DNA of 64,000 nucleotides from NCBI RefSeq assembly GCF_006385875.1, contig NZ_VFSU01000032.1, positions 1 to 64,000 of the forward strand, given 5' to 3'. A program made the translations under genes and the position numbers. The notes under the pieces are model-generated. The model had not been told where the DNA came from, did not search any database, and was given only the letters and a program-made list of their open reading frames with translations. Below, piece after piece: positions 8,082-44,990 of the stretch. This DNA is from Sandaracinobacter neustonicus. GTDB lineage: Bacteria; Pseudomonadota; Alphaproteobacteria; Sphingomonadales; Sphingomonadaceae. The first letter of the stretch is position 1; each line of letters begins with the position of its first letter.

Positions 8082-9310
8082 CAGCTCTTCAGCTGGATGA
8101 TGGTCTGCAGCAAGGTGGAGGCGGTGTCGATCGCGCGGGCGTTCGCCTGAAAGTTGCGCTGCGCGGAAATCAGCCCCACCAACTCGTCCGTCAGGTCCAC
8201 GTTGGAGCGTTCGAGGGAGCCGGAGGCGACGCCGCCAAGCCCCTCCATATTCGGCTCGCCCACCGTGAGGTCGCCCGACGTGGCGGAAACCGTCCAGCTG
8301 ACATTGCCGATCTGCCGCAACCCTTGCGGGTTGGTCACATTGCCCAACGCCAGCTTGCCCAGCGCGAAGGTTTCGCCGTTGGAAAAGGTCGCTTGAATCA
8401 GCCCGTCCCGGTCCACCGCCACACTTTCCAGCCTGCCGGGGGAATAGCCGTCCTGCTCGGTGAAACTCACGGAAAAGGGCTGGTTTTCCATCACGCTGTC
8501 GGCATGGTTCAGGGTGAAGCCGCTGCTGAAGGCGGTGGGCGTCGTCGGGTCCGTCAGCACCCCGTCCGGATCGAACGTCAGCACCTGCGGATCGGGCGGC
8601 GTGGTCGGCGTGACTTCGGAATCGCCCTGAAAGGCGCGCACCTCCCACAGCTTGTTCGGCTCCCCGCCTTCGATACGCCGGTAATAGAGCGTCAGCGTGG
8701 AGGCATTGCCGTTCGCATCATAAACCGTTGTGGATGTGGCATTGTTATAGCTCGTCGGATCGTCGCGGTTGAAGGCGGCGGTGGGCGCGGTGGCGGTGGC
8801 GGGCAGGTTGGCGACGAATCGCACCGCCGTCGTCTCCCGCGCCTCGCCAGAGGCCGTGGGCAGCCGCAGCGATTGCAGCGAACTGGCCCCCGTGCCCGTC
8901 ACCGCGCCGTCGGCCGTGGTCGGCAATACCTGCAAGCGCCGCCCCTCATTGTCGACAACCCAGCGGTCCGCATCCACGGAAAAGGCTCCATTGCGGCTCA
9001 GCGCCAGTGTCGCCGATCCGGCTTCGCCATTCTTCACAAGGAAAAATCCCTGCCCCTCGATGGACATGTCCAGCGCGTTGCTACTCGTCTGGTAGCCGCC
9101 CTGTCCGAACTGCTGGCCGACGCCCTTTACGGAAACCCCCGCACCGTTCGCGCCATTGGGGGCCTGCCCGGGGGAGCGGCTGACGATATCGCCGAAGCTG
9201 ACGCGGGATTTCTTGAACCCCGATGTGCCCACATTGGCGATGTTGTTGGACAGAACTGACAATTCCGTCTGCGAGGCGTTGAGGCCGGTGAGCGAGATGA
9301 AGAAGGTCAT
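8081..9310 (-). CDS. flgE: flagellar hook protein FlgE
   Basis: Main hook subunit, 409 aa. The N terminus has TELSVLSNNIANVGTSGFKKSR (split here as residues about 16-37). The central SSNALDMSIEGQGFFLVK follows near residue 80, and the C terminus carries GSLERSNVDLTDELVGLI and AQRNFQANARAIDTASTLLQ. The variable middle contains a FlgE-D2-type beta domain. It lies downstream of flgD, its capping protein, with 15 bases between them. Confidence 0.95.
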   Translation of the reverse strand: MTFFISLTGLNASQTELSVLSNNIANVGTSGFKKSRVSFGDIVSRSPGQAPNGANGAGVSVKGVGQQFGQGGYQTSSNALDMSIEGQGFFLVKNGEAGSATLALSRNGAFSVDADRWVVDNEGRRLQVLPTTADGAVTGTGASSLQSLRLPTASGEARETTAVRFVANLPATATAPTAAFNRDDPTSYNNATSTTVYDANGNASTLTLYYRRIEGGEPNKLWEVRAFQGDSEVTPTTPPDPQVLTFDPDGVLTDPTTPTAFSSGFTLNHADSVMENQPFSVSFTEQDGYSPGRLESVAVDRDGLIQATFSNGETFALGKLALGNVTNPQGLRQIGNVSWTVSATSGDLTVGEPNMEGLGGVASGSLERSNVDLTDELVGLISAQRNFQANARAIDTASTLLQTIIQLKS

Positions 9311-10569: not shown

Positions 10570-10585
10570 AGCAAGCGCCGTGCCA
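10570..10585 (-). promoter_or_regulatory. sigma-54 promoter of flgB operon
   Basis: On the minus strand the sequence reads TGGCACG, four bases (GCGC), TTGCT. This is an exact match to the RpoN core consensus TGGCACG-N4-TTGCW with the GG and GC dinucleotides 10 bases apart. It lies about 40 bases upstream of the flgB ATG, leaving a short leader. Sigma-54 control of rod/hook operons is established in several Alphaproteobacteria; its use here is inferred from sequence. Confidence 0.88.
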
Positions 10586-10707: not shown

Positions 10708-10723
10708 TGGCATGGGGGTTGCA
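10708..10723 (+). promoter_or_regulatory. sigma-54 promoter of flgA
   Basis: Reads TGGCATG, four G bases, TTGCA: one mismatch to the RpoN core, with GG and GC correctly spaced by 10 bases. It points toward flgA, whose ATG is 50 bases downstream, and mirrors the flgB promoter on the other strand. Confidence 0.8.
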
Positions 10724-38786: not shown

Positions 38787-39205
38787 CCTGCCTTTGCCGA
38801 CATCATCGCTTCCAGCTGGGCCTTCATCAGCTGATGCACATGGTTAACAGCCTTCAAGGGGCGAACCATCACCTTGAAATTGATAATTTTTCCGTCATCG
38901 TCGAAGCGGATCATGTCCACGCCGTTCACCTCGATGCCGTCCAGCGTGTTGGTGAATTCCAGGATTGCACCATCCGCGCTCAGCCATTCGCCGAGGTAGC
39001 GAAAGCCTTCGCCGCCGAGCACCTTGTCGGCACTGGCGAGATATTTGAAGGTGATGTCCCGCCCACGCTGGGGCGTGTGCACCACCGGGCTTTCGAACAC
39101 CACATCGGGGTGGAGCATGTCCCACAGCATCTGCTTGTCGTGGGACTTCAGAATATAGTCGTGCCAGCGATCGAGCGCGGCGCGGGTCTTGGATGTGTCT
39201 GCCAT
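38783..39205 (-). CDS. NTF2-like (SnoaL family) protein
   Basis: Predicted alpha+beta barrel protein of 140 aa. It has the pattern of nuclear-transport-factor-2-like small-molecule enzymes or binding proteins: HDYILKSHDKQMLWDMLHPD at the N terminus, VVFESPVVHTPQRGRDITF, and FTNTLDGIEVNGVDMIRFDDDGKI split at about 85-108. A frame extension to 39247 is unlikely. Its promoter region ends at the left attachment site of the integrated element 70 bases upstream. Specific function cannot be told. Confidence 0.75.
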   Translation of the reverse strand: MADTSKTRAALDRWHDYILKSHDKQMLWDMLHPDVVFESPVVHTPQRGRDITFKYLASADKVLGGEGFRYLGEWLSADGAILEFTNTLDGIEVNGVDMIRFDDDGKIINFKVMVRPLKAVNHVHQLMKAQLEAMMSAKAG

Positions 39206-39274
39206 GCGGCGACGATAAACGATCCCGAGCGCGCAGGGGACTGGCAAAGAGGAGGGTCAGTCAGCTTCTGCTGA

Positions 39275-39302
39275 GAATCCGATAATCTATACTCCTGCAA
39301 GA
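39275..39302 (+). other. left attachment site (attL) of dif-integrated element
   Basis: XerC-type arm GAATCCGATAA and centre TCTATA, followed by CTCCTGCAAGA, which does not resemble a XerD arm. The 14 bases TCCGATAATCTATA are identical to those in the dif-like site at 42212-42225. Confidence 0.7.
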
Positions 39303-39314
39303 GGGTGGTGCCTC

Positions 39315-39351
39315 ATGTGCATCATGCCGCCGCAGGCGTCCTGATGCACAT
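39315..39351. repeat. inverted repeat near left end of element
   Basis: ATGTGCATCA and TGATGCACAT are perfect 10-bp arms separated by 17 bases. On single-stranded DNA this would be a stable hairpin. It may be a protein-binding site or a single-strand replication signal. Confidence 0.75.
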
Positions 39352-39387
39352 ATTAAACAGGCTGTAGTTGTGCTTCCGCCTTAGGAC

Positions 39388-39464
39388 TTATCCACAACTT
39401 TCGTAATTACTTCGAAAGGTCAGGGACTTAGCCTGTGGATAACCTGTGCATATCCTGTGGATAT
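39388..39464. other. DnaA-box cluster, putative replication origin of element
   Basis: TTATCCACA at 39388-39396, TGTGGATAA at 39434-39442 (both exact DnaA boxes in opposite orientation) and TGTGGATAT at 39456-39464 (one mismatch). A 6-bp hairpin (CTTTCG...CGAAAG, 39398-39418) with an AT-rich loop lies between them. This is the most AT-rich part of the element, as expected of a plasmid origin. Confidence 0.6.
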
Positions 39465-39537
39465 GTTGGGGAGAAGCTGGGGATATTGGCCCCTCCTCCC
39501 GTCGGGTCGAAAAAGCGAGGGGAGGGGCCTTGGTGGG

Positions 39538-39553
39538 TGGCACGATCTTTGCA
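39538..39553 (+). promoter_or_regulatory. sigma-54 promoter inside the element
   Basis: TGGCACG, ATCT, TTGCA: all 12 core positions of the RpoN consensus match, with GG and GC 10 bases apart. It points right, into the hairpin-rich GC region and antisense to the rep operon, not toward an obvious gene. Transcription would start near 39564, within the adjoining 7-bp repeats. Confidence 0.65.
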
Positions 39554-39580
39554 TAGGCACCTGCCTATTGTCGATAGGCA
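39553..39580. repeat. three alternating 7-bp half-sites
   Basis: ATAGGCA (39553-39559), TGCCTAT (39562-39568) and ATAGGCA (39574-39580) form two overlapping inverted repeats with 2-base and 5-base gaps. They cover the expected start site of the sigma-54 promoter, so they look like an operator or iteron-type binding site. Confidence 0.6.
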
Positions 39581-39699
39581 ACGGTCGTGGTAGCCGACTC
39601 GCAGCGCTGCTGTTTCGTGACAGGACCGCTGCGTCAGGCCCGCCGCATGTGCCGATGGTTGGGGTGCCCCAAGCGCCTCTATGCCAGCCTGTAAGCCGG

Positions 39700-40699
39700 T
39701 GGTCCTTTTCCCCTTTCAGTTGATGTGGTGCGGCCTGCGGCCGCGCGCTGTCTCAAGAGCGCCGCAGCCCTTCGGTCTGCGTCGAACGGCCCGCGCCCTT
39801 CGGTCGACGGGCCGGGGGCGGGGCGCGCTTCGCTGCGCCCCGGCGTTCGCGCCCTTCGGTCGCTCCGCTGGCGGGATGGCCTCGGGGTCTTTCCCCCCTC
39901 TCTCCGGCCACCACGGCTGCGCTTCGCTTGCCTCAAGCGTGCGTCCGGCTGTGCCCCCCTCTCGCGCCGTCTGGTGTGGTGCTGGCCCCGGACCTGCCCC
40001 GCCCGAGGCGCGCAGCGCAACCGCCGCGCCAACCCCCCGCCGCCATGCCCCGTCGCCTTCGGCTGGGGCGGCGGGGGGTTGTCACGGCGCTTGCTGGCCC
40101 GGCGTGGGAGCGCGCGTCTGGCCCCCCGGCCGTCCCGGCCGGTGGCGGCTGCCGCCGCCGTTCTGCTGCGCTGTCTGCGGTCGGCACCCCGTCACGCCCC
40201 TTGCAGCCGCCCCGCACCCGCCGCGCCAGCCGCCCCCTGTTCGCTGCGCTCCAGGGCGGCTGGCACGGCGGCTGCACGGCTGCAAGGGTCGCGCCGGGCT
40301 ACCGGCTGTCTTTTGCCGCCCGTGGCGGCGGGCTGACGCCCGCCCGGCGCGCACCGCTCCGCTTCGCTCCGCTGCGCCGGGCCCCCGGGGCCGCTCCGGG
40401 GGGCGCGCCCGGTCGCCCCCCGTGTTCGCTTCGCTCCCGGGGCCGCCCGGCCCCCCTGCGCGTCTCTCCGGGGGCCGCCACCCCCGGCACCCCACCGCGC
40501 CGCGCTGCGCGCGCGCCGCTGGGCCTTCGGCCTCCGGGCGGCTGCCGCCGCCGCCCGGGCGCGGCTCGCGCTCGCGCCACCCGTGTTCGGCGCGGCGGGG
40601 TGCGCGTGGCCCCGTCGCGCGCCCCCCGCACGCCGCGCGCGTGGCCCCGTCGAGCCCCCCCGAGGCTTCGCGGGGGTGGGGCTTCGCCCCCCCTCTCCG
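39700..40699. other. GC-extreme, hairpin-dense region without a convincing gene
   Basis: About 1 kb with very few A/T bases (for example only 8 of the 60 bases at 40381-40440). It is built from short inverted repeats, many closing on CTTCGG or GCTTCGC, such as GGGGCGC-N8-GCGCCCC near 39820 and CGGCCCG-N15-CGGGCCG just before it. Frames are open on both strands but their translations are Ala/Arg/Pro/Gly runs with no domain, and they contradict each other. It could be a structured RNA, a conjugation or packaging signal, or decaying sequence. Confidence 0.55.
40031..40080. repeat. long perfect GC hairpin
   Basis: AACCCCCCGCCGCC and GGCGGCGGGGGGTT are perfect 14-bp arms around a 22-base loop that itself contains GCCTTCGGC. 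This is the strongest single hairpin in the region. It may end transcription from either direction. Confidence 0.7.
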
Positions 40700-41227
40700 C
40701 TACGCTGTGGCCCCCTCTATCGTGGTGGGCGCGGGGAAGAGGGTGGGCGCGGCGGCCTCGTGCTGCTCGGTTCCCTCGGCGGTCTCACCACGCTCATCGC
40801 CATTGCGCTCTCCCTCACCCTTTGGTGCGCGGCCGCGCCGCCCCTGCTTGCCATGCGGCCGGGGTCCGCCTTTCGCAGGGTTCGCCCCCGGCTCGGCCGC
40901 GTCAAGCCCGCCTTCGGCCCCCTTCGGGGCTTCGGGGCTTGACACGGCCGCCCCGGCGGCTGGCGCGGAGGGCAGGGGAGGCGCGTTCGCACGCCGCGCC
41001 CTCCTCGCCTCGCTGCGCTGCCACTCGGCCATGATCAGGTGGTGAGCCGCCATGGTGGCCGCCTGATACTCGGCCGTGGCCTGCTGCACCGCCTCCTCCC
41101 GCTGCAACACTTCCAGCAGGTGGGAGAAGCCGGTGGGGCAGGGCAGCGCCCTCGCCTTGCGCAGCGCCGCCGTGGCCCGGTGCTCGCGCTGAAGCGCCCG
41201 GCGAAGCCTCATGCGCCGCTTTCTCAC
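40700..41227 (-). CDS. hypothetical element protein, basic N terminus and low-complexity tail
   Basis: Third gene of the leftward element operon, 175 aa. I use the GTG at 41227, which overlaps the stop of the preceding gene as GTGA; a TTG at 41239 and ATG at 41212 are alternatives. Residues about 1-80 are helical and strongly basic (KRRMRLRRALQREHRAT, LLEVLQREEAVQQATAEYQ), consistent with nucleic-acid binding or coiled coil. The second half is Ala/Gly/Glu-rich and disordered-looking, and its DNA carries nested TTCG hairpins (40904-40943). I recognise no family. Confidence 0.5.
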   Translation of the reverse strand: MRKRRMRLRRALQREHRATAALRKARALPCPTGFSHLLEVLQREEAVQQATAEYQAATMAAHHLIMAEWQRSEARRARRANAPPLPSAPAAGAAVSSPEAPKGAEGGLDAAEPGANPAKGGPRPHGKQGRRGRAPKGEGERNGDERGETAEGTEQHEAAAPTLFPAPTTIEGATA

Positions 41228-41610
41228 GGCTGCCACCAACGCGCGCGCTTCGCGCTGGGGGTCGCGCGCGCATTATGCACGCGCACACGCGTGCGAGGCT
41301 CCAGCCGGTCCAGCCGCTTGCACTCCTGTTCCCATGAGCGCGCCAAAGCGCGCCATGCGTTGCGCGATCTCTCCAGTTTCCGATACGCATCGGCCGCAAT
41401 TTGCAGTTCTGCGCGCAGAGTGGCCGCCTCGTCGGCGCAGTCCTGATACCCGGCCGCCCACTCTGCGGCGGCCTGTTCGGCCAAATCGCAGTGGTCGCAG
41501 CGCCCGTCAGGGGCAGGGGAGGGGGGAAGCGGCAGTGGTGCTGACCTATCGTTGGTCCACCCCTGAAACGGCCTGATCCACCGCGCGAAAGCATCTGTGG
41601 TTCTGCTCAT
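41224..41610 (-). CDS. hypothetical element protein with CxxC motif and coiled coil
   Basis: Second gene of the element operon, 128 aa. The ATG shares an ATGA overlap with the RepL-like gene. A Pro-rich segment precedes a CDHCDLAEQ motif (about residues 38-46). A long helical stretch (about 55-105, AATLRAELQIAADAYRKLER) with heptad character follows, ending in a basic tail. One CxxC pair plus a later Cys could bind metal. Not recognised; probably helps replication or maintenance, judged by coupling alone. Confidence 0.55.
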   Translation of the reverse strand: MSRTTDAFARWIRPFQGWTNDRSAPLPLPPSPAPDGRCDHCDLAEQAAAEWAAGYQDCADEAATLRAELQIAADAYRKLERSRNAWRALARSWEQECKRLDRLEPRTRVRVHNARATPSAKRARWWQP

Positions 41611-42170
41611 TTTGCCCCCCAATGCCAAGGCTTAAGCACGTCAGTTGACACGCCATCGCGGCGGTTCGCCGCGTGCCAGTCGGCCGCTTTGGCGATCTCC
41701 GGCCCGCGCAACTTGCGCTCGTCCCGATACGCGCGCGCTGTGCCGCGCCAACAAAGCCAGATGCTCAACCGCGCTTCGCGCGCGTTGCGCTGGATGATGC
41801 CCCGGCGCTCCAGTTCGACAAGCGCCCGGCTGATCGCCGTGCGGTCGATCTCAAGCAACTCGCCCACGGCCTGCGCGCTAACGAACCGATACTGCCGCGC
41901 GTCCAAGTGGCCGATGGCCCATTGCAGCACGCGAGCGGTCGGGGCCGACATGCGGCAGCGGGAAACCGCCTCGGCCGCGTCGTCGAACACGATCAGCCAT
42001 GTTCGGCCGTAGTGCTGGCTCGCGCGCCGCAGGTGGTTGATGCGCCACACGTCGCGCCGCTCGCCATCCTGCAAGGTGATTGTCCGCTGATCCATGGCAA
42101 CCCGCAGGCTGCGTGCCTCTGGTTCGGAAAGGCCCTCGGGGGTGAGGGCGGTTTTCGGTCGTCTAGCCAC
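41607..42170 (-). CDS. RepL-like winged-helix replication protein
   Basis: First gene of the element operon, 187 aa. The central region has an R-T-W-L-I-V-F-D-D strand and a winged helix: VSAQAVGELLEIDRTAISRA followed by LVELERRGII, then SIWLCWRGTARAYRDE, matching the layout of RepL-type plasmid initiators (helix-turn-helix, wing, then aromatic-Arg-Gly). I start at GTG 42170, preceded by AAAGGAG six bases away; an ATG at 42209 would begin in the attachment site. It could instead be a GntR/MarR-like regulator, but DnaA boxes in the same element favour a replication role. Confidence 0.6.
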   Translation of the reverse strand: MARRPKTALTPEGLSEPEARSLRVAMDQRTITLQDGERRDVWRINHLRRASQHYGRTWLIVFDDAAEAVSRCRMSAPTARVLQWAIGHLDARQYRFVSAQAVGELLEIDRTAISRALVELERRGIIQRNAREARLSIWLCWRGTARAYRDERKLRGPEIAKAADWHAANRRDGVSTDVLKPWHWGAK

Positions 42171-42208
42171 TGTGCGCTCCTTTCGCTGTTTCGTGACAAG
42201 GGCGCACA

Positions 42209-42236
42209 TAGTCCGATAATCTATATTATGTTAATT
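42209..42236 (+). other. dif-like XerC/XerD site (attR), probable chromosomal dif
   Basis: XerC arm TAGTCCGATAA, centre TCTATA, XerD arm TTATGTTAATT. The XerD arm matches E. coli dif (TTATGTTAAAT) at 10 of 11 bases and the centre at 5 of 6. Joining the left-flank XerC arm to this XerD arm would restore one uninterrupted 28-bp site. If it is the chromosomal dif, the window crosses the replication terminus. Confidence 0.65.
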
Positions 42237-42678: not shown

Positions 42679-44990
42679 ATGCAAAGGGGGTTTCAACGTA
42701 ATCTGTGCCGGGTCCGCAGCCTTGCGCTGCTTGGTGGCACGGCGCTGATCTCAACTATCGCCTCCCCTGCCGCCTTGGCGCAGGTGGGCACGGCGGCTGC
42801 GCTGCCAGAGGATGAAATCATCGTGACGGCTCTGCGTCGCGACACCAACCTGCAAGACACGCCGATCGCGATCTCCGTGTCGACCGGTGCCGTGCTGGAA
42901 CGCAGCGGTTCCACCAGCTTCACCGATCTCACGCGCACCGCGCCTTCGCTGCGGATCGTCGATTCCGGCCCCGGCCAGCGCCGCGTGCTGATCCGGGGCA
43001 TCCAGTCGTCTGGCGAGCCCACGGTGGGCGTCTATTATGATGAAGTGCCGGTCTCCGGTTCGGTCTCGACTTCGTCTGATGCCGCCGGCACCACGCCCGA
43101 TTTCCGCCTGTTCGACGTGGAGCGCGCCGAAGTGCTGCGCGGCCCGCAAGGCACGCTGTTCGGCTCAGGCTCAATGGGCGGCACGCTGCGCATCATCTTC
43201 AAGAAGCCGGATTCCACCCAGTTCGCCGCGCAGGTGTCCAGCACCATGTCCAGTGTGAAGGGCGGCAATGTCGGCATGTCCATCGATTCGATGGTGAACG
43301 TGCCGATCGTGAGCGACAAGCTCGCCGTGCGCGTTGTCGGCAGCTTCAACCAGTTCGCCGCTATGTGGACAATAACCATTATGGCTATCGCAACATCAAC
43401 GACGGCCACAGCTATGGCGGCCGCGCGATGGTGCGCTGGACCCCGGTTGAGGATCTGACGATCGACCTCGCCGCCTTCTATGAAAAGGTGGAGACGGACA
43501 GCGCGCGCTGGATTCAGGAAGTCGGCATTCCCTATGTGACGAACGGCCGCTCGGAATCCGGCAACTATGACGAGAACAAGGTCTATTCCGGCACGCTGAA
43601 ATATGATTTCGGCCCCGTCGCAATGACGGCGATGACCGCCTGGTTTGATCGGAAGCGCACCGCCGTGTCGGACGTGTCCGACACCTTCAACGGCCGCGAC
43701 ACGGCTGCCGGTTGCCAGCGCTATCTTCTGGCCAACGCCCGCGCCTGCACGCCCACAGAATTGTCGGGTTATCTGACGTCGACGCGTGAAATCCTGACAT
43801 CCAGCCTGTGGCAGCCGCAGACGGTGAAGAACTGGGTTTCGGAACTGCGCTTCAACTCCACGAACGACAGCCCGTTCCAGTGGACGGTCGGCGCGTTCCA
43901 CGAAAAGCGCGACACGGTGGTGCGCTCTACCCTGCTGCTGGCCGATCCGAACACCGGCTGGCTGCTCAGCCCGGACGATCCCTACAACATCCGTTATGAC
44001 CGGACGATCAACGATTACCTTCGGCAGACGGCTGTGTTCGCGGAACTCAGCTATGAGCTGTTCGATCAGCTGACGCTGACGGCTGGCACGCGTTACTACA
44101 ACTTCAAGAAGACGGTGGGCGGCCGCATCGACGTGGGGCAGATCCACTACAGCTCGCGGCCAACCGCCTACACCGAAGCGACGAGCAAGGAAAACGGCTT
44201 CATCTATAAGTTCAATGCATCGTGGAAAGCGACTGACGGGCTGATGCTTTATGCTCAGGCCGCGCAGGGCTTCCGCCCCGGCGGCGTGAACCAGGTGATC
44301 GGCCTTCCGGCCGCTCTGGCCGGATACAGCTCGGACAGCCTGTGGAACTATGAACTCGGCGCCAAGACGACTCTGGCCCCCGGCGTTTACCTGAACCTCG
44401 CCGGTTACCGGATCGACTGGACGGACATGCAGGTCTCTGCCCGCACCTCCGGCACCGGTTCGGTGTTCGGGCTGATCTCCAACGTCGGTTCCGCGCGCAT
44501 CTATGGGGCAGAAGCCGAGCTTTCCGTGCGGATCACGCCGGAACTCAGCTTCAACGGCAATCTGGGCTTCACCGACGCCAAGCTGGCGGAAGATCAGGTC
44601 AGCGAGATCGTCGTCGCTTCGGGCCGCAAGGGCGACAGGCTTGTCGCAGTGCCGCGTTGGACCGCCGGTGCGTCGCTGGAATATATCAAGCCGGTCGGCG
44701 ACACGATGGACTTCCTGGGCCGGGTCGATTTTGCCCATGTGGGCAACAGCTACTCGACCCTGTCTGCGACCGACACCTATCGCCGGGAAAACCCTCCCTA
44801 CCAGATGGTGAACGGCCGCATCGGCCTGCAAGGGCAGGACAATGCGTGGTCCGCAGCCCTGTTCGTGAACAATGTGTTCGACGTGGTGGCGATCAACAGC
44901 ATCGGCTCCAGCTCCAACACGGGCGGCCTCACCACGGTGCAAAGCCTTTCGCCGCGCACCATCGGCCTGACGCTGGGCAAGCGCTTCTAG
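42679..44990 (+). pseudogene. TonB-dependent receptor, interrupted by one-base frameshift
   Basis: Outer-membrane receptor of about 770 aa if read through. A signal peptide (ALLGGTALISTIASPAALA) is followed by the plug domain (EIIVTALRRDTNLQDTPIAI; LIRGIQSSGEPTVGVYYDEV; VERAEVLRGPQGTLFGSGSM). The barrel continues in another frame from about 43360 (YVDNNHYGYRNIND) to the C-terminal RTIGLTLGKRF with a terminal Phe. One base appears lost near 43354-43362 (CAGTTCGCCGCTATGTG). The plug frame ends at 43458. The substrate is unknown; the adjacent amidohydrolases suggest a peptide-like compound. Confidence 0.85.

Follow-up and report, generated by a model that had tools for sequence, protein, structure and literature searches.

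Does an exact sigma-54 promoter core that lies inside a mobile element, and fires into DNA with no recognisable gene, control transcription in its present host? We addressed this question for one such site in a 64-kb window, i.e., the whole stretch of 64,000 nucleotides analysed here. Our favored answer, given with moderate confidence, is that the plasmid-like element of 2,934 bp carrying this exact sigma-54 site reached the chromosome through Xer-type recombination at dif, and that the site probably does not form an RpoN-controlled promoter in this strain.

A sigma-54 consensus sequence in the window

The motif is as follows.

39538 to 39553, forward strand: sigma-54 -24/-12 consensus TGGCACGATCTTTGCA (TGGCACG-N4-TTGCA), exact at 12 of 12 specified positions

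The sequence is genuine, with the -24 GG and -12 GC core correctly spaced, and the perfect 12-position core claimed in an earlier note on this DNA is borne out. From the usual -12 spacing we assume a transcription start at about 39564, which is the position that the note had given as the end of its feature. The window has a single exact copy. None of 100 dinucleotide shuffles of the window contained one, and with only the element shuffled a copy was present in 1 of 5,000. These figures overstate the surprise, as many other motifs could have been noticed in the free search that turned this one up. Comparison with control patterns gave 149 occurrences in 118 relatives versus 30 control matches, the latter corresponding to roughly 0.3 chance copies per genome of this size. 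In the six genomes of the genus the motif occurred 21 times and the reversed-pattern control not at all, and the genome under study accounts for three copies versus none for that control.

An insertion at dif and its contents

The motif lies in an insertion bounded by attachment-like sites.

39278 to 42211: mobile element of 2,934 bp inserted in the chromosomal dif, delimited by a 14-bp direct repeat and by alignment to a sister species
39275 to 39302, forward strand: attL, a hybrid in which the XerC arm and central hexamer of the host are joined to a divergent XerD arm
42209 to 42236, forward strand: attR, a complete dif, TAGTCCGATAA-TCTATA-TTATGTTAATT, identified by the dif-like site in genus genomes

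PMC4246890 gives an 11+6+11 layout for dif. The direct repeat TCCGATAATCTATA occupies 39278-39291 and 42212-42225 and is found nowhere else in the genome. Alignment to the sister species pairs 38808-39291 with 8212-8691 of its sequence and resumes at 42209-42235 with 8675-8701; the two blocks overlap in the common repeat, and an intact dif lies at the equivalent place in the sister species. As the alignment is continuous apart from the element and breaks at 39291/42209 only, an insertion of 2,934 bp lies in the window precisely at dif. The earlier note had placed the motif in a mobile element without giving its ends; the placement holds, and the ends are now set at 39278 and 42211. To the right of dif, a TonB-dependent receptor gene (42679-43458 and 43365-44990, forward strand) is apparently split by a one-base frameshift.

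We searched 40 relatives with the pattern CCGATAA-N6-TTATGTTAA, allowing one mismatch. A dif-like site was present in 14 of them, and the control pattern matched in one genome. All six same-genus genomes had one site each, except for two in G001, and the reversed control gave none there. The first set of loci inspected (n=15) included a control stretch of the contig under study (L035); the dif-like site adjoins hfq-hflX-mazG in 11 of the 14 others, and none of these three genes was seen at L030, L039, L040 and L041. A wider set comprised 74 loci, of which 68 were kept, L030, L031, L036, L037, L038 and L041 being dropped with dif outside a stricter pattern. mazG lies within 1.6 kb of dif in 52 of the kept loci and elsewhere in the stretch in three; the other 13 showed no mazG, and some of these may be plasmids. 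No second copy of the XerC arm was found in any of these 68 other loci. Several loci with a longer mazG-dif distance were considered as possible sister elements and rejected: the nine examined lack a XerC-arm repeat, with 5 to 10 mismatches over 18 positions in their best XerC-arm copies, and by eye their ORFs read as host genes.

The Xer system probably carried out the integration. Recombination of this type at dif would bring the element into the chromosome and leave a complete dif reconstituted at its right end. The contents of the element suggest a small replicon.

39315 to 39351: 17-nt inverted repeat, which would lie directly upstream of rep in the excised circle
39388 to 39472: putative origin with DnaA-box-like TTATCCACA (39388-39396) and TGTGGATAA (39434-39442), and repeats spaced by 11 bp
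39488 to 39529: GC-rich hairpin directly upstream of the motif
40700 to 41239, reverse strand: rep-operon ORF3, without a Pfam match
41224 to 41628, reverse strand: rep-operon ORF2, without a Pfam match
41607 to 42170, reverse strand: Rep-like winged-helix protein, with a GTG start after AAAGGAG and a frame open to 42209

The first product of the operon matches MarR_2 below the Pfam cut-off (E 2.2e-5), has weak PHROGs matches to replication initiators, and weakly matches RepL of a 3.9-kb Desulfosporosinus plasmid (E 4e-3, 21% identity). A single-sequence AlphaFold2 model of it had a mean pLDDT of 37 and was set aside. We call TTATCCACA and TGTGGATAA DnaA-box-like from the DnaA box consensus. 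In other genomes, the putative origin matched similar arrays over short lengths; against its own genome the self match alone was significant. We infer that the winged-helix protein is a replication initiator and the DnaA-box-like array its origin. The 17-nt inverted repeat could act as the operator of rep in the excised circle only. Integration would part this repeat from rep and leave chromosomal DNA upstream of the gene instead. No recombinase domain was detected by Pfam in the three ORFs of the element.

Searches for relatives returned little. No credible relative of Rep was found in 40 relatives, viral contigs (IMG/VR), GTDB contigs or phages, nor among plasmids at E thresholds of 1e-3 or 10. 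In 397 genomes of the family, 23 gave a Rep match at E <= 0.01, including the genome under study, and the best of the others (E 3e-4) contains internal stops. A DNA search with the whole element against plasmids and phages and a search with ORF2 against plasmids gave none. When the DNA from 39300 to 39720 was compared with the 397 genomes, 16 matched at E <= 0.01, again including the source genome; the others were all short pieces, and those inspected proved to be DnaA-box-like arrays or coding-looking DNA. One match to 39533-39563, in two genomes (G167 and G322), was first taken as a common promoter and then discarded, as it lies inside a coding frame (VGGTIIAKG). We take that frame to encode a flagellar switch-like protein. 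The orphan replicon integrated at dif is a more solid finding than any regulatory reading of the motif that it carries, and even without a working promoter it represents an Xer-integrated replicon of very small size, found in a sphingomonad and lacking recognisable relatives.

Downstream DNA, activator sites and rpoN

The motif points into the following sequences.

39541 to 39590, forward strand: predicted hairpin whose outer stem includes the CACG of the motif and which holds ATAGGCA/TGCCTAT/ATAGGCA
39600 to 40699: non-coding, GC-rich, hairpin-rich stretch

Long ORFs between 39600 and 40700 have flat GC by codon position, in contrast to rep, and the four that were tested had no Pfam match. 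The same region contains 23 short perfect hairpins, versus 13.2 +/- 3.9 in 200 shuffles (maximum 24). The rightward orientation described earlier, first into apparently non-coding, hairpin-dense DNA and beyond it towards the opposing rep operon, is supported.

This layout invites the reading that the site is a working sigma-54 promoter: an active bacterial enhancer-binding protein (bEBP) would drive transcription from near 39564, yielding either a non-coding, structured RNA or a long rep-antisense transcript that lowers rep expression or affects the adjacent origin. We regard this as possible but unlikely. It gains from the exact match and the specificity of the motif in the genus, from the non-coding hairpin-rich DNA and antisense strand of rep that lie ahead, and from genes in the window that we take to be those of NtrC and NtrX. 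The list of ORFs for 39564-40100 contains no Shine-Dalgarno-preceded ORF of at least 20 aa, which fits a non-coding transcript. Against it, the rep operon is about 1.1 kb away, and folding of the predicted RNAs from the start region is not significantly more favorable than that of shuffles (z of -1.79 and -1.46). An Rfam search found no family at gathering score, its one chance-level match being on the other strand and elsewhere. The structured RNA suggested in the earlier note thus receives no backing from folding or Rfam.

The hairpin at 39541-39590 points to a different explanation, in which the likeness to a sigma-54 site is incidental and the bases are part of an inverted-repeat structure in the replication region, serving Rep binding, single-strand initiation or termination. 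The CACG of the motif does fall in the outer stem, whose arms CACGATC-TTTGC and GCAAC-GGTCGTG surround ATAGGCA/TGCCTAT/ATAGGCA, and the motif has the GC-rich hairpin at a distance of 8 bp and the DnaA-box-like array at about 65 bp. However, the fold reaches a z of only -1.79, 12 of 200 shuffles being equally stable, the outer arms are imperfect, and a structural need leaves the exact TGG and TTGCA unexplained. We consider this explanation improbable.

The other exact sites in the genus were compared with that of the element. Most precede genes, e.g., glnB and genes for PEP-CTERM-like secreted proteins: at 16 of the 20 sites a coding-like ORF starts within 63 nt, and at one more it starts at 139 nt. 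The remaining three have no downstream ORF by the filter used, like the site in the element, which has none within 350 nt, and two of these three carry the enhancer described next. Judged by this sequence context, the exact copies in the genus are probably mostly promoters. By dyad counting, we found the enhancer CTGTAAAN5CCGACA upstream of 13 of the 20 sites. A matrix scored above 17 at 15 of the 20 (null maximum 8.6, n=400), although 13 of the sites that it scores served to build it, leaving only L290 and L306 as independent high scorers. Across loci L290 to L306, this sequence is found upstream of most exact sigma-54 sites, which precede secreted PEP-CTERM-like proteins, and it fits a two-part signal described for PEP-CTERM genes in PMC1569441.

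Within the genome under study, one exact copy lies on contig C10, 59 nt upstream of the P-II gene glnB (Pfam P-II, E 7.3e-33), and the third precedes an ORF with a C terminus that by eye resembles a sorting signal and no Pfam match. The glnB sites of this genome and of the sister species have in common an upstream sequence, TGCCGCCAAAWTGGGCA, located 60 nt upstream, which is a candidate NtrC site and differs from the CTGTAAAN5CCGACA enhancer. In the window, near-matches at 10570-10585 (reverse strand) and 10708-10723 (forward strand) lie 42 and 51 nt from divergent ORFs, and the gene downstream of the former encodes a rod protein (Pfam Flg_bb_rod). We assume that this gene is flgB and that its divergent partner, which has no Pfam match, is a flgA-like ORF.

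None of these upstream signals accompanies the motif of the element. In the 250-300 bp upstream of it, the PrsR-like enhancer is absent (score 5.1, null 95% point 5.4), as is the glnB-type sequence, and no IHF-like site was found in 39350-39540. Control by nitrogen or flagellar activators, as envisaged in the earlier note, is therefore not borne out in the DNA upstream of the motif.

The state of rpoN in the assembly also weighs against a working promoter. The gene lies at the end of contig C16 (94335-94815) and the start of contig C6 (2-389), recorded as loci L001-L004, and the two ends overlap by 514 bases with one difference. Both assembled copies have one extra base right before the RpoN box, which puts the box, ARRTVTKYRE, out of frame. 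rpoN is in frame in the four other members of the genus that have it, and a search of G005 (81% complete) gave no match. The frameshift may be real or an assembly error, as the copies sit at two contig ends. As assembled, rpoN does not support the proposed tie of the element to host RpoN.

Collectively, the motif is probably inactive: no gene follows it, no recognisable activator site precedes it, and rpoN is broken as assembled. It would stay idle in this strain, as a chance match or a relict. With roughly 0.3 chance copies per genome, and real sites nearly always accompanied by a gene or an enhancer, rough weighing tips the balance against an active promoter at 39538. Several observations nevertheless speak against an idle motif. 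Its high specificity in the genus (21 versus 0) makes a real sigma-54 site likely by sequence alone, and the plausible sites before glnB, flgB and the flgA-like ORF in the same genome imply use of sigma-54 by the host lineage. Misassembly may explain the rpoN frameshift, given its position at contig ends and the frameshift in the neighbouring TonB receptor gene; enhancers can be remote or of another type; and the element may come from a host with an intact rpoN. A regulatory role is possible, although its support does not extend beyond the motif itself. In its fullest form, a mini-replicon integrated at dif would have its own sigma-54 promoter by the origin, and nitrogen or motility signals of the host would govern replication or excision of the replicon through an enhancer-dependent transcript, either non-coding or antisense; we consider this quite unlikely. 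If the promoter does work, a mobile replicon would be tied to an enhancer-dependent sigma factor, a situation not described among the matches listed for literature on sigma-54 and plasmid replication. In this genus, an exact TGGCACG-N4-TTGCA is usually accompanied by both an enhancer and the start of a gene, and caution is therefore due where only the exact core is present.

Comparison with known systems

The -24/-12 core of the element is identical to that of the sigma-54 promoters of PEP-CTERM genes with a PrsR-type enhancer, as described in PMC1569441, but unlike them the site has neither an upstream enhancer nor a downstream gene. With the small plasmid replicons of the RepL type, the element shares a winged-helix replication-like protein and a weak RepL match, whereas no RepL Pfam domain was listed for this protein at E up to 1.

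For the mode of integration, an attP of the VGJphi class was considered and dropped, since, according to PMC4246890 and PMC5357621, an identical centre combined with divergence in the XerD arm is characteristic of the class of TLCphi and the gonococcal genomic island (GGI). Unlike the members of that class, the element is only 2.9 kb long, with three genes and a non-coding stretch and no recognised phage or secretion genes; its rep family has no close relatives, and its host is a sphingomonad. A literature search for plasmids integrated by dif/Xer in Sphingomonas found none. Two papers on a microvirus, one of which names an alphaproteobacterial host, contain the phrase "elements exploiting Xer", and elements of this kind may already be known in Alphaproteobacteria. 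Like TLCphi and the GGI, the element lies at dif with no integrase gene recognised; its XerC arm and central hexamer match dif, its XerD arm has diverged, and one of its ends is a complete dif. In its sequence it thus resembles an integrative mobile element exploiting Xer (IMEX) of the TLCphi/GGI class, for which a role of the host XerC and XerD recombinases is predicted.
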